Source of the DNA: a virus
Virus record (IMG/VR): IMGVR_UViG_3300037507_003668
Coordinates: 1-60,065 of that record
Reading direction: 5' to 3' (one strand)
DNA: 60,065 bases
Shown in pieces: positions 2,083-57,054 of this stretch (position 1 is the stretch's first letter; every line of letters begins with the position of its first letter). The notes below the pieces were generated by a model. The model made no database searches, had not been told where the DNA came from, and saw only the letters and a program-made list of their open reading frames with translations. Position numbers and translations under genes: made by a program.

Positions 2083-2829
2083 TTATGCCCAGAAGAAGTT
2101 TCTGTTTTCAACAATCCATACAAGCCACTTGGTGTCAAGTTCTTCTAGTTCTTTTTCAAGACGATTGACTTCACCATATGCTTCTTCATATGTAGCAGAT
2201 GCGTTGATAGACATTTCCGCACTTGGATATGATGCTTCTATCTTTTTTTCATATTCGCCGCGATCAAACTTGATATAATCATAACACTCTCTAAGTTCTT
2301 TCTCAAACTTGGCGTGAATCTCACTTGAGTTGATATAATCAACAGTCTCAAAGCAGTTTTCCTGCTCTACAAAATGTAGCACCATCGTAAAATTTACGTG
2401 TGGAATGAGCCATACTTTATCTGTCCAAGTATTTGGAATATCCTTGTTCAGCCAACGTTGTTTAGGAAACATAGTACATTCTATGTTTCTATAAAACCAA
2501 TCGTGCATTCGACGATACGTAAAGCGAACAAGTATCTTGTTTCGTATAAAATACTGAACTGGATACTTCTTTCGTAGATACTTGTTTACTTCGCTGTCGC
2601 TGCGAAAAAGTTCTCTAACATCGCTGGTATGCGGCTTTAGATACCAGAAATACCATAGATGTCTATCCTTATATGGCAACTTCTTGTAATCTTCCAATGT
2701 GTCGCAACATACATATTCGTATAGTATATCGTCCATACTCTCTAGAACATTTACAATCTTGTCCTTTAGCGTAGGCTTGTATTCGCCGTCTGGCATTTTG
2801 ATTGCCTGCATTCTTTGTTGAAAACTCAT
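2083..2829 (-). CDS. Hypothetical protein, 248 aa
   Basis: A soluble protein rich in aromatic residues (many Trp and Tyr in the middle part, for example HLWYFWYLKPH near residue 60) and ending in a probable coiled coil (about residues 205-240, with repeated E and L). The start ATG overlaps the stop of the upstream RNase Z-like gene by four bases (ATGA), so the two are probably co-translated. No family recognised. Confidence 0.72.
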   Translation of the reverse strand: MSFQQRMQAIKMPDGEYKPTLKDKIVNVLESMDDILYEYVCCDTLEDYKKLPYKDRHLWYFWYLKPHTSDVRELFRSDSEVNKYLRKKYPVQYFIRNKILVRFTYRRMHDWFYRNIECTMFPKQRWLNKDIPNTWTDKVWLIPHVNFTMVLHFVEQENCFETVDYINSSEIHAKFEKELRECYDYIKFDRGEYEKKIEASYPSAEMSINASATYEEAYGEVNRLEKELEELDTKWLVWIVENRNFFWA

Positions 2830-3674
2830 AAGTCATTTACTTTGTGCGGGTTGATAAACTTGACGCCGCTGTATTTGTTGTTCTCTACAAGATTGTTATA
2901 GTTGTAGCGACCAGACAAATGAGCAGCAATCATATTTTTAGCACGAATACCTTGGCAGAAATTATATGCTTCGTCAAGAGTAAAATGCGTAGGATCATCT
3001 CTATCTTTAGCATCAAGAAAAGTACAATCCATTATAATATCCTTCACATCCATCAATTCGGTAGTATCACCGATTTGATAAGCATCAAGGCAATAAGCAA
3101 ACAGATTAGCACGATAAGTTTCGTTGAGTTTATCGCTGGTAACTCCTCTGCGAATAAAAGAAGGAATGTCCAATCCTTGATACTCTTTCTTTAGTCGAGT
3201 ACGGTTCTCGTAAATGACATAACCAAGTGTGCTTTTGTTCTTTTGATGCTTCATATCAACCGCACGCAAAAACTGCTTGTTGCCAAGATCAAGTTCAAAT
3301 CCAGATGAAATAGGCACAAACTTCAGATCATAACGCAACCAGTTGCCAGCACGAAGTTTGCAAAACTGAATAAGGTCGTTCATCAAATAGTTGTCTTCTG
3401 GATAATATACCGTAAGAGGTTTGTTATTATCCATTGTATCAACATTGCGACTCATACCTCTGCCAGCATTTCGGCAACCAATAATACTTGGCAATCCAAG
3501 AGTATGATCACCGTGATCGTGGGAAATGAAAATCTTATCAATACCAGCAAGAAAGTTGCCAATGCTTGTAGCAGCACCCTCGCCGCAATCAAACATAAGA
3601 TTGCGAGTTTTGTCGTGACACCAGTTGCTATATAGTGCCTTGCTAAAAACAGAAATGTTGAGACCGTTATTCAC
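2826..3674 (-). CDS. RNase Z-like metallo-beta-lactamase fold hydrolase
   Basis: A 282-residue protein with the metallo-beta-lactamase signature HDHGDH (residues 52-57) after a FDCGEG strand-turn (28-33), a DCTFLD metal-binding segment, and AHLSGRY near the C terminus. The last motif resembles the H-x-S-x-R-Y motif of tRNase Z. In bacteria RNase Z trims tRNA 3' ends, or acts as a phosphodiesterase. All nine tRNAs in this window already encode CCA, so a processing role is possible but unproven. The frame begins with GTG at 3674. No ATG is available near this point that keeps the first beta strand. TTGACA (3705-3710) lies upstream, but no clear -10 is seen at normal spacing. A competence-type or phosphorylcholine esterase-type MBL protein is the alternative. 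Confidence 0.75.
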   Translation of the reverse strand: MNNGLNISVFSKALYSNWCHDKTRNLMFDCGEGAATSIGNFLAGIDKIFISHDHGDHTLGLPSIIGCRNAGRGMSRNVDTMDNNKPLTVYYPEDNYLMNDLIQFCKLRAGNWLRYDLKFVPISSGFELDLGNKQFLRAVDMKHQKNKSTLGYVIYENRTRLKKEYQGLDIPSFIRRGVTSDKLNETYRANLFAYCLDAYQIGDTTELMDVKDIIMDCTFLDAKDRDDPTHFTLDEAYNFCQGIRAKNMIAAHLSGRYNYNNLVENNKYSGVKFINPHKVNDL

Positions 3675-39404: not shown

Positions 39405-39596
39405 TTAGTATTTTGTAGCAAGATGCCAATATCCGCAATAACTACATTTGTATGGTATTCTATCACTACGATACTCTGTCAGTATTCTTTTAGCATCACG
39501 AATAGCATCGTTGCGAGATTCATAGTTTGTTTTAGTTTCGCAGGAAAGTTTGTGATGATCATTTAAGAACTTGGTATAAGATTTTCTTGTAGTCAT
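39405..39596 (-). CDS. Small zinc-ribbon-like protein, 63 aa
   Basis: A basic protein ending in YKCSYCGYWHLATKY, in which CxxC plus His may bind zinc. It overlaps the end of the RNA ligase gene by 38 bases, so it is probably co-translated. It may bind nucleic acid, but this is inference. Confidence 0.65.
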   Translation of the reverse strand: MTTRKSYTKFLNDHHKLSCETKTNYESRNDAIRDAKRILTEYRSDRIPYKCSYCGYWHLATKY

Positions 39597-40674
39597 CTGC
39601 TGTTATTGGCTTACCGTCAAGCACTTTGAATACAATCGCAGATCTGCCTGTGCTGCCATGTGCTTGTAATATTTCTGCGGCAGCAAACTTGCGTGGCATT
39701 TTAGAACGAGCGGCGGCAAAAGCAAACAGTGCGTTCATTATGGTATGAACTTCTTTCATCGCATCGCATATGCGTGAAATATGCCCGATTGCCATATTTG
39801 CTATTTCGTAGTCAAACTTATGCGTAAGATAATCAAAGAACTCAGTATAGCCAGTAGGTTCGTGAGATAGTGTATGACGGTCCATAAACCAATCAATATA
39901 TACATCAATTACCTTTTCTATGCTTGAGATTTCACTCTTGGCGCGATGCAGATACAAGTATTGAGCACTCTTGATCTTTAGAATATCCTGTTCGTCGTTG
40001 TAATACAGGCATATGCCCTCAAAGTCCCGCATATCAACCACTGCCTTCTGTAATTCGTCGATGGAGTTATAATTATAAAACTTTGGGCGGCGAAAGTTAT
40101 AGTTTCTGGCAATATGGTTTAGTGAGTGCTGGTCTACAAGCGAATAGTCATCGTGTACAATTGCGGCAATAAGAACCATATCGGGCTCTTTGCCATAATC
40201 TAATACAATACGATTGGTAGGAGATAGCCACTCAAAGATATAAGAATGCTGAGTGGTGTCTTGCTTTTCAAGATATGATATAAACTTGGCATACTTATTT
40301 AGCAATACATCTATTTCGTGTGCGTTTTCTTGCCTACGAGCATCTGTCGTTCCTCTTGTACGAATAACAGTATGCCCCTTATATCTTGAGAATATAAGCG
40401 TAGAACCGTCCAACTTCTCAATCATTCTTGAACCAACGAGAGAAGACGGTGTGGGTGATATGTCAGGCTTTTCACCAAGGTTAAAAAACTTCTTGAAACT
40501 CAGTGAAACGGGATTTCCTTCCTTATCCCACAGTGAAGATCTAAAGATAAGATTCTGCTTGTTCCAAGTCGCTCCGATATGAATAGGTTGAATCAAATAG
40601 CACTCGTGCTCACCAACGAGATGCTGGTGAACCATAAAAGAGTTTCTATCTATAGACTGTATGTCTATTTTCAT
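39559..40674 (-). CDS. T4 Rnl1-like RNA ligase
   Basis: A 371-residue covalent nucleotidyltransferase. Motif I is EKLDGSTL with Lys87 as the likely AMP-accepting residue. Then come RTRGT, the FEW-containing YIFEWLSPTNRIVL (motifs IIIa/III), FEGICLYY (motif IV, with Glu and Gly) and LKIKSAQY (motif V). T4 Rnl1 seals broken tRNA anticodon loops with ATP after host nuclease damage. The C-terminal about 130 residues are helical, as in Rnl1. The promoter upstream places the ATG 6 nt after the -10 box. Confidence 0.88.
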   Translation of the reverse strand: MKIDIQSIDRNSFMVHQHLVGEHECYLIQPIHIGATWNKQNLIFRSSLWDKEGNPVSLSFKKFFNLGEKPDISPTPSSLVGSRMIEKLDGSTLIFSRYKGHTVIRTRGTTDARRQENAHEIDVLLNKYAKFISYLEKQDTTQHSYIFEWLSPTNRIVLDYGKEPDMVLIAAIVHDDYSLVDQHSLNHIARNYNFRRPKFYNYNSIDELQKAVVDMRDFEGICLYYNDEQDILKIKSAQYLYLHRAKSEISSIEKVIDVYIDWFMDRHTLSHEPTGYTEFFDYLTHKFDYEIANMAIGHISRICDAMKEVHTIMNALFAFAAARSKMPRKFAAAEILQAHGSTGRSAIVFKVLDGKPITADDYKKILYQVLK

Positions 40675-41040: not shown

Positions 41041-41991
41041 TTACTCGCAGATTGTCAATAAACTTTCGCGTGAAATCTTATTTATAGCAAGTTCTTTCAT
41101 CTTGAACTCAAAGTCGAGATGTAGATTGCCTTTGTAGTTGGCATAAATAGACGGCATCATAGTAGGAAAGTCGGCGTGAGCACGCGGATTTTTGCCGGGC
41201 AATGATTCGCTGAAATGAAACAACGGAATAACTCCAGTTGGCCAAGTTGATAGTGCTGTATCAAACGCAAACTCTTCGCTGGTTGAGTCTGGATTACACA
41301 TATGGTGCAGATTATCAAATGTAATTGGAATACCCAGTCGCTTGTATGTGTTTTCATATAATGCCATTACACTCCAACTCTTTAGTTTGTCTTCGTTCTC
41401 CAACACTAAACGACTACGCACACCGTCGCTCATATTATGATATACTTTCTGGAATCTATCTGTTGTTTCGGCATAGTTACCATTGTTATAACAGTTCATA
41501 TGAATATTAATCGGTGCTTCGTATGAACGAGGTAAATTAAGCATATCCATAATCATGGCGTGTTGATCCAAGTCTCGTATAGAGTTTTCAACAACTTTTG
41601 GATTTGGACTGGCAGGTACAACAAACTGGTCAGGATGCATGCTACAACGAATGTTATTGTCCTGTATGATCTTAGCGGCTGCTCTGAATTCCGAGTATAT
41701 TTCTTCGGCGTTATAAAAATCATCCACAGTAAACTCCAGATCTGGGTGCGTCATCAATGGAAAAACATTACTACCAATGCGGTAATTCCAGTTATTAACC
41801 GCACACTCTCCAAGAACAGCACGAATAGTCTTAATATTATTCAATGAACGATCAGCAAGCACTTTCATAGCAACCTTGCTACCCAACTTCTTATATTGGG
41901 CATATGTCATTACATTGAACTTGATTTTATGCTCTTGTAGTCCTGTATGGATACAGCATAGCGATGGAGTAATATTAGATGGTAAAATCAT
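41041..41991 (-). CDS. uvsE: UV damage endonuclease (UvdE)
   Basis: A 317-residue protein with the UvdE TIM-barrel pattern: SLCCIHTG near the start, RIGSNVFPLMTHPD, CSMHPDQFVVPAS, INIHMNCYNNGN, LVLENED, FDNLHHMCNP and FHFSES, whose His, Asp and Glu residues bind the metal cluster. UvdE nicks DNA on the 5' side of UV photoproducts and other lesions. TATAAT touches the ATG at 42000, so that start could not be in the mRNA; the ATG at 41991, 9 nt on, is more likely. Confidence 0.9.
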   Translation of the reverse strand: MILPSNITPSLCCIHTGLQEHKIKFNVMTYAQYKKLGSKVAMKVLADRSLNNIKTIRAVLGECAVNNWNYRIGSNVFPLMTHPDLEFTVDDFYNAEEIYSEFRAAAKIIQDNNIRCSMHPDQFVVPASPNPKVVENSIRDLDQHAMIMDMLNLPRSYEAPINIHMNCYNNGNYAETTDRFQKVYHNMSDGVRSRLVLENEDKLKSWSVMALYENTYKRLGIPITFDNLHHMCNPDSTSEEFAFDTALSTWPTGVIPLFHFSESLPGKNPRAHADFPTMMPSIYANYKGNLHLDFEFKMKELAINKISRESLLTICE

Positions 41992-42000
41992 AGCATACAT

Positions 42001-42891: not shown

Positions 42892-43272
42892 TGGTGGACG
42901 TGAGGGGAGTTGAACCCCTGTGCTGTATAATATAACTACAACCATATACATGCTTATCTCTTATAATCCGACTAAGTTTGGTAGAGCACCACTTAGAAGT
43001 TGAGGACTCGTGTTTCTCGCTGTTGTTACGACCCTCGTCCTTACAACAGCAAGCAGATGGTCGAGCGTTTTATTCTATATATCTGCGTCAATAGATAAAA
43101 CGGGTAGCAACTTAGGCTACAGCAACTTCGCTCTTACGGCTTACGCTTAGGAACGATGTCTTAGCAAGATTTCTCTTAGCATTTATTTTTTCCAACGGGT
43201 ATTATACAGAGACATTAGACTCTGTGCATGCGGACTGCATCTACACTATATAGTAGAATCCAGAACACGCCC
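42892..43272 (-). ncRNA. ssrA: tmRNA (transfer-messenger RNA), 381 nt
   Basis: The 3' end reads GGTTCAACTCCCCTCACG then TCCACCA, a T arm and CCA, and the 5' end GGGCGTGTTCTGGATTC. The two ends pair as a 7-bp acceptor stem with one G-U pair. The conserved AAGCATGTA element lies before the T arm. The mRNA-like part most likely resumes at GCT (43178-43180) and ends at TAA (43112-43114), giving a 22-residue tag starting AKRNLAKTSFL and ending KSEVAVA. An alternative start at the second GCT gives 17 residues. The tag is long and ends in AVA rather than ALAA. tmRNA rescues stalled ribosomes with SmpB. Confidence 0.9.
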
Positions 43273-43562: not shown

Positions 43563-43590
43563 TTGACATATACAATACTTAGAATAATAT
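43563..43590 (+). promoter_or_regulatory. Sigma70-type promoter of the RNA-repair operon
   Basis: TTGACA (43563-43568), 16 nt, TAATAT (43585-43590), then nine bases to the ATG at 43600, which predicts a leader of about two bases. It is the only plus-strand promoter of this class in the region and drives three genes. Confidence 0.7.
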
Positions 43591-43599
43591 TTTATTTTT

Positions 43600-43953
43600 A
43601 TGTATAAACTATTTCTTGATGATGTAAGAGAACCAGAACAAGTGACTTGGGTAAAACTACCAGATGGTCCTTGGGAAATTGTGCGTAATTATGATCAATT
43701 CGTTGAGCATATCTCAAAGAATGGCATTCCATCGTTTGTTGCCTTTGATCACGACCTTGCAGAAGAGCATTATGGTGCCAATCCAAGAAGTGAATTCAAA
43801 GAGAAAACGGGATATCATTGTGCCAAGTGGCTGATTGAAAAGTGTATGAATGAAGACACAAACTTTCCACACTATGTTGTTCATAGCATGAACCCAGTAG
43901 GAAAGATGAATATTACCAGTTTGGTTGAAAACTTCAAGAACACCATCAAGTGA
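43600..43953 (+). CDS. Cyclic-phosphate processing receiver-domain protein
   Basis: A 117-residue protein with LFLDDVREP (residues 4-12), FVAFDHDLAEEHYG (about 46-59) and a later HSMNPVGKMNI. The DDxRxP start and the DHDL turn match the receiver-like domain predicted to process cyclic phosphates in RNA repair systems. The usual phosphorylation Asp site is replaced by that pattern. It overlaps the phosphoesterase gene by four bases (GTGA). Confidence 0.78.
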   Translation: MYKLFLDDVREPEQVTWVKLPDGPWEIVRNYDQFVEHISKNGIPSFVAFDHDLAEEHYGANPRSEFKEKTGYHCAKWLIEKCMNEDTNFPHYVVHSMNPVGKMNITSLVENFKNTIK

Positions 43954-44600
43954 AAAAGATCAGCCTTAAAAGTGCAGACCAAAAGATGTGGTTTGTTTCC
44001 GATCTGCACCTTGGTCATAACAAGCCATTCATTCTTGGCCCAAGAAACTATTCCAATATAAATGAAGCATACGAACATACGCACAAAATGTTGGACGAAC
44101 ATATCGGACCAAATGACATTGTGTTTAATCTCGGTGATGTTGTGATTGGTGCATTTGATAATTCTCTAGCGTATGCCAAAAGAATTGTGCATATTCCGTG
44201 CAAACATCAGTATTTTATTTGGGGAAATCATAATGCCGGAATTCAACAGATATACGACGATTATAGAAAAGAACTAGGTTTATTGGCGGATGATATTGAA
44301 ATGTATCCTCTCACAATTCCAAACACAAACTTTACTTTTCTAGGACATTATGCAGAAATAAGTATAGACACCAAAAAAGTTGTTCTTACCCATTATCCAA
44401 TTGCTTCGTGGCACGGCATAAGTAAAGGTGCTTATAATATCCACGGTCATTGTCATAGAAATTTAAAGGAAGATCTTTCTCTTGCTAGACTTGATGTTGG
44501 TTGGGAATGGAAGAGACGCCCCGTGGAATGGAGCGAAATTGTAGAAGAATTAAGTCCAAGAAAAACGATTCCTCCAGATCATCATGGTAAAGATGAATAA
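43950..44600 (+). CDS. Calcineurin-like metallophosphoesterase
   Basis: A 216-residue protein starting at GTG 43950, which overlaps the upstream stop. Motifs: FVSDLHLGH (D-x-H), FNLGDVVIG (GDxx), FIWGNHN (GNH), VVLTHYPI and IHGHCHRN (GHxH). The form resembles phage and RNA-repair phosphoesterases such as 2',3'-cyclic phosphodiesterases. A role in trimming RNA ends before ligation is inferred from its neighbours. Confidence 0.86.
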   Translation: MKKISLKSADQKMWFVSDLHLGHNKPFILGPRNYSNINEAYEHTHKMLDEHIGPNDIVFNLGDVVIGAFDNSLAYAKRIVHIPCKHQYFIWGNHNAGIQQIYDDYRKELGLLADDIEMYPLTIPNTNFTFLGHYAEISIDTKKVVLTHYPIASWHGISKGAYNIHGHCHRNLKEDLSLARLDVGWEWKRRPVEWSEIVEELSPRKTIPPDHHGKDE

Positions 44601-44605
44601 AATTT

Positions 44606-45088
44606 ATGAAAAAACTAATACACAAGGATGGCAATCTACTTACTGCAACAGACGTTGAAGTAATTGCTCATCAAGCCAACTGCCAAAACATATTTGGCGC
44701 AGGTATTGCTAAGAGTATAAAAGAAATGTATCCCAAGGCATATCACGCAGATAGTATGGCATACAAGGATGGCAAAGCAGTGCTTGGAAGTTATAGTTTT
44801 TGTCATATGAATGGCAATCCTTTCAAGAAGATATTCAACCTATATGGGCAAAACTTGTATGGCTCAAAAACCAGAATGACAAACTACAATGCGTTGTATG
44901 ATTCTCTTGAAGGAATGAAAAACTATCTAGTAGAGAATGATGAAGATTTACCAGTTCCAAATATTGGATTTCCATATCTTATGGGATGTGGCCTTGGAGG
45001 CGGCGATTGGAGAATAGTAGAAAGATTGATTGAAGTTGCCTTTCACAATTATGAAGGTGATATAATAATCTATAAATTCAAAGGATAA
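44606..45088 (+). CDS. Macro-domain protein (ADP-ribose-1''-phosphatase-like)
   Basis: A 160-residue macro domain. AHQANCQNIFGAGIAKSI (about 26-43) is the ADP-ribose phosphate-binding loop, and PYLMGCGLGGGDWRIVE holds the second GxGGG loop. The N-C-x-x-x-x-G-A-G-I form is close to Poa1p-type enzymes that remove the phosphate from ADP-ribose-1''-phosphate, a by-product of tRNA 2'-phosphate removal. It could instead reverse ADP-ribosylation by host defences. It closes the operon before a strong terminator. Confidence 0.86.
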   Translation: MKKLIHKDGNLLTATDVEVIAHQANCQNIFGAGIAKSIKEMYPKAYHADSMAYKDGKAVLGSYSFCHMNGNPFKKIFNLYGQNLYGSKTRMTNYNALYDSLEGMKNYLVENDEDLPVPNIGFPYLMGCGLGGGDWRIVERLIEVAFHNYEGDIIIYKFKG

Positions 45089-45091
45089 TAA

Positions 45092-45117
45092 AAAAGCCCC
45101 GAGAAATCGGGGCTTTT
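45092..45117. terminator. Bidirectional rho-independent terminator
   Basis: An 11-bp stem (45092-45102 with 45107-45117) with a GAAA loop, and T-rich tails on both strands. It ends the plus-strand operon and the convergent minus-strand gene at 45139. Confidence 0.9.
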
Positions 45118-47476: not shown

Positions 47477-48976
47477 CTAACCTATGACTGAAAGCTTGAG
47501 GTTTCGTATCAACACATCATTCTTGAAGTTTACAAGTTTGAGTTGAAGTTCGAACTTATCGCCGTTTGGTATAACTTCTTTCATCTTTCCAAGATGTCCA
47601 ACAGTCATAGTAAATGAGTGTGTAATGGTTTTGTTTGTTGTACTCGGATCTCCATCCATTATCTTTACTCGACCAATATACTTTCCATTTACATATGCTT
47701 TGATGGCACATTTTCCAACGTGAAATACTGGTCCTGTTTCTATTTCCAATAATGATGTTCCGCCGTCTATTGCCTTACTAATCAAATCTTTTAACGTATT
47801 TTGCGGGCGAACATACAAAGATAACCCTTCACGTACTGTAGCATATTGATTTATTGGAGCAGATACACTGGCGTAGTTTGTTGATACGCTTGTGGGAACA
47901 GTCAAATTATTATCGGATGGTACAGCATATGATACTGTGTTCATCTTTGTCATAATATCTTTGATTGTTACAGTAACAGGAGAACCATCAATGTCTGGGA
48001 ATGTATATACTTGTTGACCCCACGGACCATCAAGATCTGGCATTGGATTTCTGTATAGTGAGAATATGCGATCTATATTTCCGTGATGCATAAAGAATAT
48101 AGGATCATTTGCCGCATATCTTAGAGTTCCCATATTACGATTCTTACCATAACGAGTACCTACCCAATCGTGGCCATCATTGTGTGGTCCAGATTCCACC
48201 AACCCTTGGCCAGTTGCTCTATCTGTAACAGGCTTCCCGCCAAATTGTTCCCAAGGGGTTGTAAGAACAAGATTGATATATTCTGGACTCATATAGTTTT
48301 TGCACTCTTGAACGTGAGCTTTTGAATCTTGTGAAACTTCGTTGTTTGGATCCATTTTGCTCTTTTGTATTGTTGGTCCACGATTTCCGTCAAACAATGC
48401 AATGTTGTCAAATCCAAGATTATCGGCGTTTACCATATTCTCTTGAGTAAGATCATATCCAAACAGCGGACTCGCCAAACCTCTTGCTTCACGTTCTTTT
48501 GTGTTTGGTATTTCTTGATGTGCACACCAATCCCAGAATGGATATGCAAAGGGTACACCGTTGTATCCCAACTTATCCAAACAGTTTGCGAGTATTCTTT
48601 CTAAGAAGAAAATATAGCCACGATGCCAAGGTAGAAAATGCCAACCCCAATGTACTTGAGGGTTTGCTGCATCCGAAGCTGTGCAGTGTTTCATATGAAT
48701 ATTTGCATATGATTCCCATTGGGTAGGTGTTCCCATAGGAAGAGTATTTCGCATATAGTCAACTGCTTTACACAGCGTTCTTACTTCTTCGTCGGTAAGA
48801 TCATAAAAGCTTTTGCGAACTCTGTTTGGTTCTTTTCCAAATACAAAAGGTTTTGCGTTTGGATCACACAGTTCAACGGGCTTATTTATTCCACCCGGTT
48901 GAGCCGAATTCAATGTAGCTACACTGGTCAACCCGATGGCACCAGTACCAATAAATTTTCTTCTTGATATTTTCAT
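47477..48976 (-). CDS. Tyrosinase/polyphenol oxidase with Tat signal
   Basis: A 499-residue protein. Residues 1-25 are a twin-arginine signal (SRRKFIGTGAIG). The type-3 copper site is visible: CuA with HMKHC (94-98), His109 and His118 in VHWGWHFLPWHRG, and CuB with HNDGHDWVG (His-x3-His) and PIFFMHHGNIDR. Such enzymes oxidise phenols and catechols to quinones using oxygen. The C-terminal about 150 residues form a beta-rich lid-like domain. It would be exported folded with copper to the periplasm. A phage-encoded one is very unusual. Confidence 0.9.
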   Translation of the reverse strand: MKISRRKFIGTGAIGLTSVATLNSAQPGGINKPVELCDPNAKPFVFGKEPNRVRKSFYDLTDEEVRTLCKAVDYMRNTLPMGTPTQWESYANIHMKHCTASDAANPQVHWGWHFLPWHRGYIFFLERILANCLDKLGYNGVPFAYPFWDWCAHQEIPNTKEREARGLASPLFGYDLTQENMVNADNLGFDNIALFDGNRGPTIQKSKMDPNNEVSQDSKAHVQECKNYMSPEYINLVLTTPWEQFGGKPVTDRATGQGLVESGPHNDGHDWVGTRYGKNRNMGTLRYAANDPIFFMHHGNIDRIFSLYRNPMPDLDGPWGQQVYTFPDIDGSPVTVTIKDIMTKMNTVSYAVPSDNNLTVPTSVSTNYASVSAPINQYATVREGLSLYVRPQNTLKDLISKAIDGGTSLLEIETGPVFHVGKCAIKAYVNGKYIGRVKIMDGDPSTTNKTITHSFTMTVGHLGKMKEVIPNGDKFELQLKLVNFKNDVLIRNLKLSVIG

Positions 48977-49013: not shown

Positions 49014-49622
49014 TCATCTAACTACTAAACTTGTAGTTTCACTTTTTACAAGTCCAGCAGTATTGCGTGCTTCTACTTTATAGTTTCCTGAATCAGCAGT
49101 TGTAATATTGGCTAGTTTTAGGCTTGCATTTGTTTTTCCCGCTAAAACTACATTATTTTTATACCAAGTAAATCTCAACGGTCCAGTTGCAGCAGCATCA
49201 ACATTTGCTTTTATAGTAATATCATCGCCAACATATGCATCTGCTTGCAAACTATATAAATCACCTTCAAGCAACCAAAAGTTTCTGCTTATTCTGGTTA
49301 GTTTCCATTGCGAACCCATTTTTCGCGTTCTAAAAGCATCATCCGATTGTAGTATAATAACACCGTTTTCTCCAACAATATTTATTGTACCATCCGATAA
49401 TGCTGTGCCATATATTTCTGTGCCTGTGCCAAATACATTAGTTCTTTCAAATGGCACAACAAATCTAACCGTTGAGTTATTTGGCGTCTGCATCGCAATC
49501 AAATAACCAGAATCTCTGTTTGTTATTTTATATTCGGTGCTTGTGCTTATGGTTTTTACATCCAAAGCATATGATGTAAGAGCAACTGTCAAGAATGTCA
49601 GTAATAGAAATATCTTTTTCAT
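49014..49622 (-). CDS. Exported Ig-like domain protein, 202 aa
   Basis: Signal peptide MKKIFLLLTFLTVALTSYA, then a beta-rich middle part and a C-terminal I-set-like Ig domain (about 125-200: TIKANVDAAATGPLRFTWYK, LANITTADSGNYKVEARN). The D-x-G-x-Y-x-V motif is the Ig signature. Exported Ig-like proteins bind surfaces or other proteins. TATTTATA lies 6 nt before the ATG. Confidence 0.8.
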   Translation of the reverse strand: MKKIFLLLTFLTVALTSYALDVKTISTSTEYKITNRDSGYLIAMQTPNNSTVRFVVPFERTNVFGTGTEIYGTALSDGTINIVGENGVIILQSDDAFRTRKMGSQWKLTRISRNFWLLEGDLYSLQADAYVGDDITIKANVDAAATGPLRFTWYKNNVVLAGKTNASLKLANITTADSGNYKVEARNTAGLVKSETTSLVVR

Positions 49623-51352: not shown

Positions 51353-51380
51353 ACTCTACACACTTTATTTATTTCGTCAA
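51353..51380 (-). promoter_or_regulatory. Promoter of the tRNA operon
   Basis: On the minus strand TTGACG (51375-51380), 16 nt, TAGAGT (51353-51358). The start would be about 20 nt upstream of tRNA-Leu (UAG). It overlaps the end of the PEP-CTERM gene. Confidence 0.6.
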
Positions 51381-51713
51381 GAACTTTCTGCGATAAACTG
51401 CATATCCCAATCCAATCATTCCTGCAAACAATGCATATGTAGACGGTTCAGGTACAGCAGGACCGCAATAATCTTTATCATAACCACCTCCACCGCCATA
51501 ATATGGACGCTTGTATTTATCGTCATCATCGTCATCATCTTCATCGTCATCATCCCAATCATAACTGCTGCTCATACTAATCATCTGCACAGGGTCTGTA
51601 TATGACGGCTGAAATGTGCTCATAATATCATAATTACCAAAATCTACAACAGAGTCATTGGCAAAAATGCCGCTAACAAACATAGTAAAGATAAACAATA
51701 GTTTCTTATTCAT
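51369..51713 (-). CDS. PEP-CTERM sorting-signal protein with Asp-rich tract
   Basis: A 114-residue protein. Signal peptide MNKKLLFIFTMFVSGIFA, an acidic run of about 15 Asp/Glu (54-65), a Gly-Tyr stretch, then VPEPSTYALF (87-96), a hydrophobic segment and the basic end YRRKF. This is a complete PEP-CTERM signal, recognised by exosortase in Gram-negative bacteria that make extracellular polysaccharide. The phage does not show an exosortase gene here, so it would depend on the host. The Asp run could bind calcium. Confidence 0.9.
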   Translation of the reverse strand: MNKKLLFIFTMFVSGIFANDSVVDFGNYDIMSTFQPSYTDPVQMISMSSSYDWDDDDEDDDDDDDKYKRPYYGGGGGYDKDYCGPAVPEPSTYALFAGMIGLGYAVYRRKFLTK

Positions 51714-51779: not shown

Positions 51780-52226
51780 TTATATCTTATAATCTTCGTG
51801 CTGTATGCTTTTTAGATTATTGTATATGTAATGTACCCAATAATCAAGTTCGTGTGATTCATCTACTTTCAGATGATAATCAGTTGGTTGTGTAAATAAC
51901 TTTGTTGTATCAGTAAAATCTCTAACTGGTTTTCTTGCCATTAATATTACATAAGCATCTTTGGCGCCAAATGCCTCTCGTGCTGCTGCCGTAGGGCATA
52001 CAAAATCTGCTATGGCATATACACCTGTTCTATTTACTATATCACATAATACTCCCATTCTTCTGGCGTGTTCTATTCTATCAGCTACATCAAACGTAAG
52101 GTCTTTATTTATTTTAGTTCTTATTTCGTCGGCGTTGAAATGAACAGCGTTCAATATTTTTGATAACGCAGTAGATAATGTTGTTTTACCCGAACCAGGC
52201 AAACCCATAACAAGTATCTTTTTCAT
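51780..52226 (-). CDS. APS kinase-like P-loop kinase
   Basis: A 148-residue protein with GLPGSGKTT (8-16), FNADEIRTKINKDLTF, DRIEHARRMGVLCDIVNRTG and DFVCPTAAAREAFG, close in order to adenylylsulfate kinase (CysC) motifs. APS kinase makes PAPS, the sulfate donor of sulfotransferases. A related phage RNA kinase or zeta-toxin-like fold is the alternative, since the first Asp motif reads NAD rather than DGD. A sulfotransferase is encoded at 15636. Confidence 0.78.
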   Translation of the reverse strand: MKKILVMGLPGSGKTTLSTALSKILNAVHFNADEIRTKINKDLTFDVADRIEHARRMGVLCDIVNRTGVYAIADFVCPTAAAREAFGAKDAYVILMARKPVRDFTDTTKLFTQPTDYHLKVDESHELDYWVHYIYNNLKSIQHEDYKI

Positions 52227-53027: not shown

Positions 53028-54020
53028 CTATTTTTCAATTAAGTTTTGTTTGAATATTTTCCAGCAATTTTCCCAAGTCCAATATGAACCATTCATCGCG
53101 ACTATATCACGGTTTAGTTTTAGCGATTTGTTGATACAATCTTCAAGATTATCTCCCATATATCCAGTCAACCCATCTTGAACAATATCTATTGGACCAG
53201 AAACGGGATATGCGGCTATTGGCGTGCCTAAACTCATTGCTTCTATCAAAACTATACCAAATGTGTCTGTTTTGCTGGGAAAACAAAATACATCTGCGTT
53301 TATATATTCATTTGCTAAATCTTTTCCGGTTTTGTATCCAAGGAACTTTACATTTTTATATTTTTTCTCTAAATGTTTTCTATATGGACCATCACCAACC
53401 AAGCGAACTTCATATTTGTCTTGTAGAACACACAAGTCATCCAGATTTTTTTCAAGGGATATTCTGCCAACATATAACACAACAGGAACTTCATTATTTT
53501 TTCTTTGAGTTGTTGGCGTCAGCAGATTCTTATCAACTCCTCTTGTCCATATAACCATCTCAACGTCAAAATTGTTTTTACTCAGTTCATTCATCATTGA
53601 CTTGGTAGTAACCAATACTCTACCAGAATGTTTATGAAACCATCTTACATAAGAATATGTGATACACTTTGGTATTTTATACATTTCATTCACATACTCT
53701 GGAAACTTTGTATGATATGAAGTGTTGTATTTGTATTTCTTACTATCACAATATAGTTTGGCAAAAAGTCCAAGCGGGCCTTCTGTAGAAATATGAATAT
53801 AATCTGGATTGTATTCTTCTATCTTTTTTCCTAATCCAAATGGCAGGCTCATTTTTACTTCCGGATATCTTGGCATACTAAAATGCTTATACATTTCCGG
53901 TGAAATAAAGCATACCGTATGTCCATCATTTTCCGCCTGTATCTTTATATTCTTGTATGTAGTTACAACGCCATTTATTTGCGTGAAAAGATTATCCGTT
54001 ACTATTAGTATCTTTTTCAT
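53028..54020 (-). CDS. Family 4 glycosyltransferase (mannosyl-/SqdX-like)
   Basis: A 330-residue GT-B enzyme: KKILIVTDNLFTQINGVVTTYK (acceptor-domain glycine loop), EGPLGLFAKLYC, YNTSYHTKFPEY, VVLYVGRISLEKNLD and DTFGIVLIEAMSLGTPIAAY (E-x7-E). The HTKFPEY segment resembles GDP-mannose-dependent alpha-mannosyltransferases and SqdX. It overlaps the LpxH-like gene by 29 bases, a pairing I know from bacterial chromosomes, so the pair was probably taken from a host. Confidence 0.84.
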   Translation of the reverse strand: MKKILIVTDNLFTQINGVVTTYKNIKIQAENDGHTVCFISPEMYKHFSMPRYPEVKMSLPFGLGKKIEEYNPDYIHISTEGPLGLFAKLYCDSKKYKYNTSYHTKFPEYVNEMYKIPKCITYSYVRWFHKHSGRVLVTTKSMMNELSKNNFDVEMVIWTRGVDKNLLTPTTQRKNNEVPVVLYVGRISLEKNLDDLCVLQDKYEVRLVGDGPYRKHLEKKYKNVKFLGYKTGKDLANEYINADVFCFPSKTDTFGIVLIEAMSLGTPIAAYPVSGPIDIVQDGLTGYMGDNLEDCINKSLKLNRDIVAMNGSYWTWENCWKIFKQNLIEK

Positions 54021-54759
54021 TGTAGTGTATCAACTCAAATGTTCCATTGTGATGCTCTACTATGGCGGTCAATGATTCTACCCAATCGCCGCAGTTCATA
54101 TAATGAACATCATTTATATGTTTCATTTCTGGATGATGTATATGACCGCATATTACGCCAACATATCCTTTTCTTTTACAATGATTAGATATATTAGTCT
54201 CAAACTTGAATATAAAATCAACGGCCTTTTTGACGCGATGCTTCAAAAACTTGCTGAAACTCCAATAACCAAATCCAAGTTTATGTCTTATCCAGTTATA
54301 TTTTGTATTTAGGGCAAGAATAAAATCATAACTTTTGTCTCCAAGAAAACTAAGCCACGGAGCCAATCTTGTTATACCATCAAATAAATCTCCGTGAACA
54401 ACAAGATATTTTTCACCATATACACTAATATGTTCTATTTCATTACATAACTTGATGTTTCCTACTTCAAGTTCATATGGCAGCATCAATCTGAAAAACT
54501 CATCGTGATTGCCAATAACATATACTATTTTGGTATCATTACGATGTAGTTTCAACAATCTTCTGATTACTTCAGAATGGCTGTTTTTCCATTTTGACCT
54601 GTTTTGTTGAAACTTCCAACCATCTATGACATCACCGACGAGATAAAGAGTCTCGCAACTGTTACATTTTAGAAAATTTTCTACCTCTTTCGCCTTGCTA
54701 TTTTTAGAACCGAGATGTAGGTCGGATATAAAAATAGAGCGATATTTAGGTAGTTTCAT
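53992..54759 (-). CDS. LpxH-like metallophosphoesterase
   Basis: A 255-residue protein with IFISDLHLGSK, LYLVGDVIDGW, YVIGNHDE, VVHGDLFDG and VICGHIHHPEM, the metal-binding motifs of UDP-2,3-diacylglucosamine hydrolase (LpxH and its paralogues). The FDG and GHIHHPE forms match the LpxH2 branch. It would remove UMP from a lipid A precursor or hydrolyse a related substrate. It precedes the family 4 glycosyltransferase in the operon. Confidence 0.84.
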   Translation of the reverse strand: MKLPKYRSIFISDLHLGSKNSKAKEVENFLKCNSCETLYLVGDVIDGWKFQQNRSKWKNSHSEVIRRLLKLHRNDTKIVYVIGNHDEFFRLMLPYELEVGNIKLCNEIEHISVYGEKYLVVHGDLFDGITRLAPWLSFLGDKSYDFILALNTKYNWIRHKLGFGYWSFSKFLKHRVKKAVDFIFKFETNISNHCKRKGYVGVICGHIHHPEMKHINDVHYMNCGDWVESLTAIVEHHNGTFELIHYNEKDTNSNG

Positions 54760-55089: not shown

Positions 55090-57054
55090 TCAAGGCTTTG
55101 GAGGCAGGAATGTGCCTGTACCAGCATTGACTGGATATACTCCACTCAAGTTGGTAGCAAAACTCAATGCACTCAAATCTGTTACTCCCTTGGCATTGAA
55201 CGTAAGTGCCGAGGTCTTTAGCAGATTGGATAGTGTAATATTTCCGCCAGCAGTTAGTGTTAGAGCACCAACCAACGAGTTTGTAGAAGCGGCAGAAGTA
55301 TTGAAAATATCTCCACCACTTACAACGCTGGTAGTTCCACCGTTCAATGAACCAATGTTTGTACTATTGAGTTCATTTAGGTTGATTGCTCCAGTGCCAG
55401 CAGCGACTGACACCAATCCAAAGTTGTTGTTTGGTTGAGTCAGGCTAACTTCAGCATTATTGGTATTGACGACCAAGTTTCCACGAACATCCATAGAAGT
55501 TGTAGGAACTTGAGTAACTGCTGCTCCAGCAATACCTGTGGTAGAAACGGTAAGGTTTCCGCCAACATTAGTCGTACCAAGCGAAGTAGCACGAGCCTGT
55601 GTCAGTACCGCATCAGTTGTAGCAGTTAGTGTAACATTTCCGAGGTTGTTTAGACCGGCGGGATCGTTAAGATTTACATTTGTCGCAGTAAGATTGCTTG
55701 CGCCAGCAGTAACGCGGCTAGTAGCGAGCAATTGCACAATGTCATTCTTACTTGTGGCAACCAGATTGCCAGTTACAGCAACACGGTTTAGGTTGAGTGT
55801 AGCGTCCTCAACGATAGTAGCATTACCACGAACATCAAGGCTTACTGGACCAAAACTATGCTTTGCACGAGCAATATTGACATCACCAGTTGTAACAAAT
55901 GATGTCGGACCGTACACGAACTGCTTTTCTGCTGTATCAACTACAGTAGGAGCGGTAAATGTAGTATTACCAGAACTTCCCAAGGCAACGCCAGTCAAGG
56001 CGATGCGGGACAGTGCCGTTACAGTTGTATCACCAGTTCCGCTGTTAGTAACATTGGCAAGAGTAACCGCACCACCACCAAGAGTGATGTTGCCAGCCGC
56101 CATTACATTATAGTTTGTAGAAGCGGCGGTACTTGCAGCAACAATGTTATTGCCACTAACCGTAACATTTGTGCTGGTCAAGCGTGGAAGCGAAACATCC
56201 TTACCAGAGACAGTCAGGTTTGTTACGTTGAGCGTACCAGTACCTTGTGTGACAGCACCAGCGGTCAAAGCGCCAGTAGCATTGATGGTGATATTTCCAG
56301 TAGAAGTAATAAAGCCGTTAGGAGCAATGATTACATTTCCGCCGGAAGTATTGATGTCGGTCTTGCCATTTAGCACAGCAGGAGCAGCAAAACTGGAACC
56401 CAGAACGGCATTACCGCCGTATGTATTGACTACAAGATTTCCAGTAACAATGGCACCTCCAATGTTTGTGTTACGAGAAGCAATGGTAATGTTCTCCGAA
56501 ACTGCCTGCAACACCGCGCCATCAGTAACGGTTACTCCATTTGTGAGAACGCTCGTGGGCAGGTTGTCTTGGCTGGGCAACTTTGCGTTGGTATTCCAGT
56601 ATCCAAGAGAAACAGTAGGATCGTCAACGGTGCTGACGTATAATCCAGCAACATTGATGGTGCTAGTACCACCGATAAGTACGCCGTTTGGATTTAGAAT
56701 GAACACTCGTCCATTCGACTCGATGGCACCGTTGATGGTGCTGGCTGCTCCACCGGAGACGATATTCAGCACAGACGAGTTGGTTGCAGGCAATGTGTAT
56801 TCAATGCGCTGACCGGCGTCAATCGTGTTCGTTCCACTGCCAAAAGCCTGCCAGTTAAGCACAGCCTTGTTTGGTGCAGAAATGCTCAGTGTGTTTGCAG
56901 TTCCATTTACTAAAACACCCGCTGTCGTTTGTAGATTGGTGGCGTCGATGCTCGGAAGAGCAAAGACATGCGCCACGGCGAATACAAACACCATCAACGA
57001 AGACAATGTCTTCGTCCACAGCGAGTTATTATGTGTATTTTTATTGTATTTCAT
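55090..57054 (-). CDS. Filamentous haemagglutinin-type protein with TPS domain
   Basis: A 654-residue protein with an N-terminal signal region (about 14-32, LSSLMVFVFAVAHVFALP), then the two-partner secretion domain: VLNWQAFGSG, AASTINGAIESNGRVFILNPNGVLIGG with the NPNGVLIG motif at 121-128. The remainder is a repetitive beta-helix (units such as GNLVV, GNITI and VTLANVTNSG). In bacteria such proteins cross the outer membrane through a TpsB partner and act as adhesins. No TpsB is in the window. It has its own promoter and terminator. Confidence 0.88.
   Translation of the reverse strand: MKYNKNTHNNSLWTKTLSSLMVFVFAVAHVFALPSIDATNLQTTAGVLVNGTANTLSISAPNKAVLNWQAFGSGTNTIDAGQRIEYTLPATNSSVLNIVSGGAASTINGAIESNGRVFILNPNGVLIGGTSTINVAGLYVSTVDDPTVSLGYWNTNAKLPSQDNLPTSVLTNGVTVTDGAVLQAVSENITIASRNTNIGGAIVTGNLVVNTYGGNAVLGSSFAAPAVLNGKTDINTSGGNVIIAPNGFITSTGNITINATGALTAGAVTQGTGTLNVTNLTVSGKDVSLPRLTSTNVTVSGNNIVAASTAASTNYNVMAAGNITLGGGAVTLANVTNSGTGDTTVTALSRIALTGVALGSSGNTTFTAPTVVDTAEKQFVYGPTSFVTTGDVNIARAKHSFGPVSLDVRGNATIVEDATLNLNRVAVTGNLVATSKNDIVQLLATSRVTAGASNLTATNVNLNDPAGLNNLGNVTLTATTDAVLTQARATSLGTTNVGGNLTVSTTGIAGAAVTQVPTTSMDVRGNLVVNTNNAEVSLTQPNNNFGLVSVAAGTGAINLNELNSTNIGSLNGGTTSVVSGGDIFNTSAASTNSLVGALTLTAGGNITLSNLLKTSALTFNAKGVTDLSALSFATNLSGVYPVNAGTGTFLPPKP

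Follow-up and report, generated by a model that had tools for sequence, protein, structure and literature searches.

In Pnkp of the C. thermocellum type, a kinase, a calcineurin-type phosphatase, and a ligase are joined in one protein, which has phosphatase activity. Here we describe a phage locus that is predicted to spread similar activities over separate genes. Its core is a set of three plus-strand genes at positions 43600 to 45088 of a 60,065-base virus record from IMG/VR (IMGVR_UViG_3300037507_003668; we refer to this whole stretch of DNA as the window). They encode a cyclic-phosphate-processing receiver-like protein (cREC), a calcineurin-like metallophosphoesterase (PE), and a macro domain protein (macro), and we lean towards reading the operon as a module with which a large phage repairs RNA ends. 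The likeness to Pnkp is by kind of activity, not by a sequence link between PE and the Pnkp phosphatase: a kinase (in a relative of this phage, with a match to 4gp6), a calcineurin-like PE, and an ATP-dependent RNA ligase are predicted here, and cREC and macro are added.

The closest descriptions that we found in the literature are text passages, as distinct from figures, of Iyer et al. 2021 (PMC7824862) and Iyer et al. 2022 (PMC9503650). cREC was named in the former, where it is linked to RNA ligases; the passages predict an action of cREC on 2',3'-cyclic ends and a role for RlaP alongside RNA ligases. Section 3.7.3 of the latter describes phage neighbourhoods of sirtuin, cREC, and RNA ligase, which resemble our locus in their predicted clean-up of RNA ends. 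They differ from it in that no sirtuin was found in the 8 records searched here and that RlaP is present in 12 of 29 contigs. A bacterial parallel, as described in parts of Lu et al. 2025 (PMC11833690), is the PARG operon of D. radiodurans: this is also a putative three-gene operon in which a macro-type ADP-ribosylhydrolase sits with repair genes, but its macrodomain is of the PARG type and it is described as DNA repair. The same source reports that TARG1-type macrodomains act on ADP-ribosylated RNA phosphate ends. Within these passages, cREC with RNA ligases and with calcineurin-like enzymes is already published; the arrangement with macro and RlaP, without an ADP-ribosyltransferase, is new here. 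Our literature search found no description of cREC-PE-macro-RlaP and no laboratory test of this gene combination.

The operon genes and the RNA ligase before them are:

43600..43953, plus strand: cREC, cyclic-phosphate-processing receiver-like domain protein, 117 amino acids (PF20274, phrog_1479)
43950..44600, plus strand: PE, calcineurin-like metallophosphoesterase, 216 amino acids, GTG start, 4-nucleotide (nt) overlap with cREC (phrog_547)
44606..45088, plus strand: macro domain protein, 160 amino acids (PF01661, phrog_335; nearest folds BT1257, TARG1, DarG, and Poa1p)
39559..40674, minus strand: Rnl1-like RNA ligase, 371 amino acids, the probable sealing enzyme (PF09511, phrog_562, match to T4 RNA ligase 1)

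As an initial annotation of the window had it, all three operon genes are open reading frames (ORFs) that overlap or are adjacent (the 4-nt overlap is followed by a 5-nt gap), and they lie on the rarely used strand. Most of the coding is on the minus strand: a greedy set of ORFs of at least 90 amino acids, some of them probably spurious, has 10 on the plus strand and 65 on the minus strand. We rejected the idea that the three are chance ORFs, given the recurring gene order, the overlaps, and the ratio of nonsynonymous to synonymous differences (pN/pS) in relatives, which is 0.15 to 0.43 across 15 comparisons, with pS near saturation. The operon is real and conserved in its lineage; its chemistry is predicted throughout.

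Scanning IMG/VR with PE gave a lineage set of 29 contigs, several of them near-duplicates, whose PE proteins are at least 57% identical to that of the window (17 distinct proteins); locus L030, at 25% identity, is outside this tally. cREC overlaps PE in 28 of the 29 contigs, by 4 nt in 24 and by 14 nt in 4. Three contigs (L015, L022, and L028) end before the expected start of macro; in all 26 informative contigs, macro lies 3' of PE, either directly (-4 to 5 nt; 10 contigs) or after 304-1219 nt (16 contigs). Rnl1 is found 3.3-4.8 kb before PE in 27 of 29 contigs, and L025 is without the stretch expected to carry it. Recurrence of the three genes in other phages had been named as a test by the initial annotation, and within the lineage the genes do recur. 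The ligase that it placed at 39559 is also borne out: RNA_lig_T4_1 (PF09511) scores 50.1 bits (cut-off 28.3), and T4 RNA ligase 1 (5tt6) matches at 7.7e-07. Against the equivalog family TIGR02308, the protein scores 60.6 bits, which is below the cut-off of 242.25.

RlaP (PF10127), a nucleotidyltransferase of RNA repair whose Pfam family is titled RNA repair pathway polymerase beta, exceeds its cut-off in half of the 8 lineage records (4). Where a profile search placed it 3' of macro, on the same strand, it is adjacent in 5 contigs and 766-2382 nt further on in 7. In L011, 4-nt overlaps join cREC to PE and PE to macro, the ATG of RlaP follows macro by 39 nt, and no gene lies between; in L012, there is a remnant of RlaP (about the last 54 residues). 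L001, L023, L025, and L026 have no RlaP although at least 9.4 kb follows macro. We infer that the ancestral operon may have been cREC-PE-macro-RlaP and that it was trimmed in the window's branch.

A gene matching a SLOG profile lies immediately 5' of cREC in 6 of 29 contigs (L006, L013, L014, L015, L027, and L029), and the copy in L014 is a YAcAr (PF10686, 43.6 bits; cut-off 28.2). These genes fit a different explanation, in which the operon degrades the alarm nucleotides of defence systems (cyclic ADP-ribose types, ADP-ribose phosphates, or cyclic oligonucleotides): cREC and PE would open cyclic phosphodiesters, macro would take ADP-ribose derivatives, and the RNA ligase would be a mere neighbour. 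Passages of PMC7824862 count cREC, macro, and SLOG as parts of counter-nucleotide systems, and locus L183 combines macro and cREC with NADAR. However, the most repeated partners are RlaP and RNA ligases, both of which are RNA-specific, and PADLOC gives no match for cREC or PE. We consider degradation of alarm nucleotides to be unlikely.

For more distant phages, the linkage counts are lower bounds, given flanks of at most 10 kb per side, narrow flank profiles (for PE, RlaP, and ligase), and the shortness of some loci. All four PE relatives from the PE scan with 46-57% identity have a ligase in their flanks (L131/L048, L132, L134, and L135). In L048, an RNA ligase (TIGR02306, 171.9 bits; cut-off 151.15) overlaps PE, which is followed directly by cREC. 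L132 and L183 lie on one 95.7-kb contig, which carries RNA ligase, PE, RlaP, macro, HAD_SAK_2, cREC, and NADAR on a single strand; at L132:1607-4108, an intein splits the RNA ligase gene, with an extra ORF between the halves. In L134 and L135, an RNA ligase precedes PE by about 2 kb. L189 has PE, macro, and Rnl1, and this linkage is partly selected because L189 was reached through the macro scan.

Turning to the proteins, cREC matches cREC_REC (PF20274) with 81.3 bits (cut-off 27). D7, D8, D50, H51, D52, H95, and N98 are unchanged in all 28 aligned sequences; these include the acidic residues of the receiver pocket (D7, D8, D50, and D52). A single-sequence search of cREC against solved structures gave chance-level matches only. 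The best named match to cREC is in Stenotrophomonas phage DLP_6, where a profile search of 12.4 kb found no PE, macro, RlaP, or ligase.

PE belongs to phrog_547 ("phosphoesterase," 2.5e-34) and is weak in Pfam (Metallophos_2, 18.4 bits, below the cut-off of 27). The metal motifs D-x-H, GD, GNH, H, and GHxH are complete: D18, H20, D63, N93, H94, H148, H167, and H169 are invariant in 24 of 24 sequences. Its AlphaFold2 model (predicted local distance difference test [pLDDT] of 91.7) has 1xm7 as its nearest solved fold (Z 16.1, root mean square deviation [rmsd] 3.0, 165 residues aligned), with LpxH, Mre11, and YfcE in later rows among its fold neighbours. A single-sequence search with PE found no solved relative, and a genome scan with PE gave 2 weak loci only, both bacterial. 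The PE of L029 is 171 amino acids long, with part of the domain missing, perhaps owing to an assembly error. Two more calcineurin-like phosphoesterases (PF00149), at 501-1364 and 53992-54759 of the window on the minus strand, are distant from the operon.

PE also seems to have a history of its own within the operon. At the DNA level, the window shares 97-100% identity with L023 and L026 in the upstream flank, 93-98% in the cREC bins, and 90-94% in the macro bins, versus 58-72% in the PE bins; 3' of macro, similarity to the window persists in L026 only. In L022, L023, and L026, the PE protein is 83-85% identical to that of L027 versus 66% to that of the window, and the cREC of L027 shares merely 59-60% with its counterparts in the window, L023, and L026. 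The breakpoints, measured in L023 and L026, are near the gene borders. This suggests that PE alleles have been exchanged within the operon, perhaps driven by selection on substrate range.

Macro scores 26.2 bits against PF01661 (cut-off 22) and matches phrog_335 ("phosphatase") at 2.6e-42. The nearest folds to its AlphaFold2 model (pLDDT 86.4) are BT1257, TARG1, DarG, and Poa1p (Foldseek, VIA). All 17 phage macros share H22, N25, and Q82; the D of the GGGDW motif varies, with 6 of 12 sequences having N, S, or I there. Macro is in the same fold neighbourhood as TARG1, DarG, and Poa1p; its site residues differ from those of Poa1p and DarG, so neither of these two labels is safe, and the substrate of macro is the least certain step in RNA-end repair as we read it.

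The initial annotation proposed a step of the Poa1p type. In this route, the 2'-phosphate would be removed by a KptA, then probably the host's, and phage macro would act on the resulting ADP-ribose-1''-phosphate. The Poa1p structure 6lfq is among the nearest folds to the macro model (Z 15.9, rmsd 2.7, 151 residues aligned). Mutant structures of Poa1p probed H23, S30, and F152: the H23 position corresponds to H22 of macro and is kept in all 17 phage macros, but S30 aligns to I29, which is T in most relatives, and F152 aligns, through a weak stretch of the alignment, to a glycine. In addition, none of 13 phage records yielded KptA/Tpt1; these are the window, 7 lineage records including the 297-kb G001, and 5 others. 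With sirtuin also at 0 of 8 records, the Poa1p step is weakened, although its histidine stands; we consider it quite unlikely. The 13 records are all classed as linear and are often fragments, so the absence of KptA, sirtuin, or DarT is not proved, though G001 is long.

Macro might instead mimic the DarG antitoxin, by removing ADP-ribose from phage DNA or by blocking the host's DarT, with its link to the operon reflecting shared timing. DarG macrodomains, so named in the fold titles, are among the solved sequences nearest to macro (5m3i, which is the best, and 5m31), and PADLOC scores macro as DarG with 56 bits; NCBIfam's DarG gives 48.9 bits versus a cut-off of 250. The two lysines of the DarG "TKK" stretch, where a lysine is catalytic, align to Q82 and N83 of macro, and macro keeps company with RNA-repair genes. 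A search of 13 phage records gave no DarT (PF14487), which is uninformative about the hosts (the control was detected in 1 of 14 genomes). There is a phage precedent for an antitoxin that acts against DarT, AdfB of ICP1, which is not called a macro domain in the parts of PMC11481870 that describe it. Overall, we judge a DarG mimic to be very unlikely.

RNA-end repair is our best reading because of the gene context together with the literature (the passages of PMC7824862, PMC9503650, and PMC11833690). A host ribonuclease would cut an RNA, for example a tRNA; cREC and PE would take off the 2',3'-cyclic or 2'/3'-phosphate; a Pnkp-like kinase, so far found only in relatives, would phosphorylate the 5' end; RlaP would restore lost nucleotides; and Rnl1 (39559-40674) would seal the RNA. 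Macro would remove an ADP-ribose compound that arises from the same damage. This is more probably an ADP-ribose that caps an RNA phosphate end; ADP-ribose-1''-phosphate is the less likely substrate because we found no phage enzyme that produces it. We infer each of these reactions, and their order, from what is observed: gene content and order, conservation, predicted folds, active-site residues, and the presence nearby of ligases and RlaP, joined in one contig by HAD_SAK. A bolder form, in which the phage pathway is self-contained (macro strips ADP-ribose from RNA ends, cREC and PE heal them, the kinase, RlaP, and Rnl1 complete the repair, and no ADP-ribosylated product is made), is doubtful.

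The candidate for the kinase is in G001: an AAA_33 kinase whose best solved match, 4gp6, is the Pnkp kinase domain of C. thermocellum, although its entry is labelled as a metallophosphoesterase. G001 also carries a second RNA ligase. The window has a small P-loop kinase at 51780-52226 (minus strand), which sits among tRNA genes; we considered it as the 5'-kinase and left it unassigned, as APS_kinase is its top match in Pfam (56.4 bits) and AAA_33 is second (32.5 bits). HAD_SAK_2 had 0 matches in 8 lineage records, and its absence is not claimed because the controls were equally silent.

Several observations weigh against RNA-end repair. Outside the lineage, just 5 of 48 cREC loci (L053 and L055-L101) have PE, RlaP, or ligase, and one more has SLOG; of the PE relatives at 22-36% identity, just 3 of 22 have a ligase in their flanks. 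Within the lineage, cREC is absent from the locus of L007, and L026 has no Rnl1 despite 10 kb of upstream coverage. Macro is not always co-transcribed with PE, because 16 of 26 contigs have the longer gap, which contains a minus-strand ORF in the loci with listed ORFs. In the window, no RlaP was found by profile search and no Pnkp-like kinase was identified. As for the proteins, 1xm7, the closest structure to PE, is a protein of unknown function, and a 2H match in G001 could perform the cyclic-phosphate step instead. cREC is described as experimentally uncharacterised as of 2022 in the passages of PMC9503650, and our literature search recognised no test of its predicted activity. The initial annotation's proposals thus fare unevenly. 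The placement beside RNA ligases holds in the lineage and in L048, L132/L183, L134, L135, and L189, and it was not found at most cREC loci outside the lineage in the flanks covered. Of the compact RNA-repair route, the linked set with Rnl1, and with RlaP in 12 of 29 contigs, is supported; the KptA/Poa1p step and the distant linkage are weakened. Its other suggestion was that the genes may act as a counter-defence to ADP-ribosylation.

Three further features flank the operon:

43563..43591, plus strand: promoter-like site, TTGACA, spacer of 16-17 nt, TAATAT/AATATT (10 of 12 consensus bases)
45092..45117, both strands: intrinsic terminator, 11-bp stem, 4-nt loop (-19.1 kcal/mol, z -5.3)
42892..43272, minus strand: tmRNA gene, the operon's opposite-strand neighbour (ARAGORN; Rfam RF00023, 90.7 bits)

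One promoter and one strong terminator had been proposed. The terminator is well supported, but the promoter is a weak match: across the region there are 19 promoter-like matches versus 12.9 (standard deviation 3.4) expected from shuffling, a modest excess, and the TTGACA site at 43563 barely exceeds this background. A dedicated operon promoter is unproved.

A UvdE gene lies between Rnl1 and the operon across the lineage, as does the tmRNA wherever it is found. In the window, the UvdE-type UV endonuclease is at 41041-42000 (minus strand; PF03851, 151.8 bits), between Rnl1 and the tmRNA. The tmRNA encodes a 22-residue tag. ARAGORN found a tmRNA in 18 of 29 lineage loci, and Rfam found one in all 7 of the 11 ARAGORN negatives that were checked (L009 and L019-L021 were left out). 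We do not claim a trans-translation set because SmpB was found in 0 of 8 records; huge phages with both tmRNA and SmpB have already been reported (in parts of PMC7162821). The Gcw_chp gene of the window is matched in its nearest relatives only. A metallo-beta-lactamase-fold protein at 2826-3674 (minus strand) has a weak match to the anti-Pycsar protein Apyc1, below the cut-off (17.8 bits). On the minus strand, 47477-48976, 49014-49622, 51369-51713, and 55090-57054 presumably encode tyrosinase-like, Ig-like, PEP-CTERM-like, and haemagglutinin-like secreted proteins, respectively. These labels, read off the reading frames, hint at a Verrucomicrobia-like host.

In these phages, cREC overlaps one PE gene, and its partners across phages include different RNA ligases, RlaP, and macro. 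The three proteins are small, and they could settle the functions of cREC and PE. If macro works on RNA ends, hosts may block RNA repair by ADP-ribosylating broken ends. If the self-contained pathway is true, it would counter hosts that cut RNA and then cap the ends with ADP-ribose against ligases.
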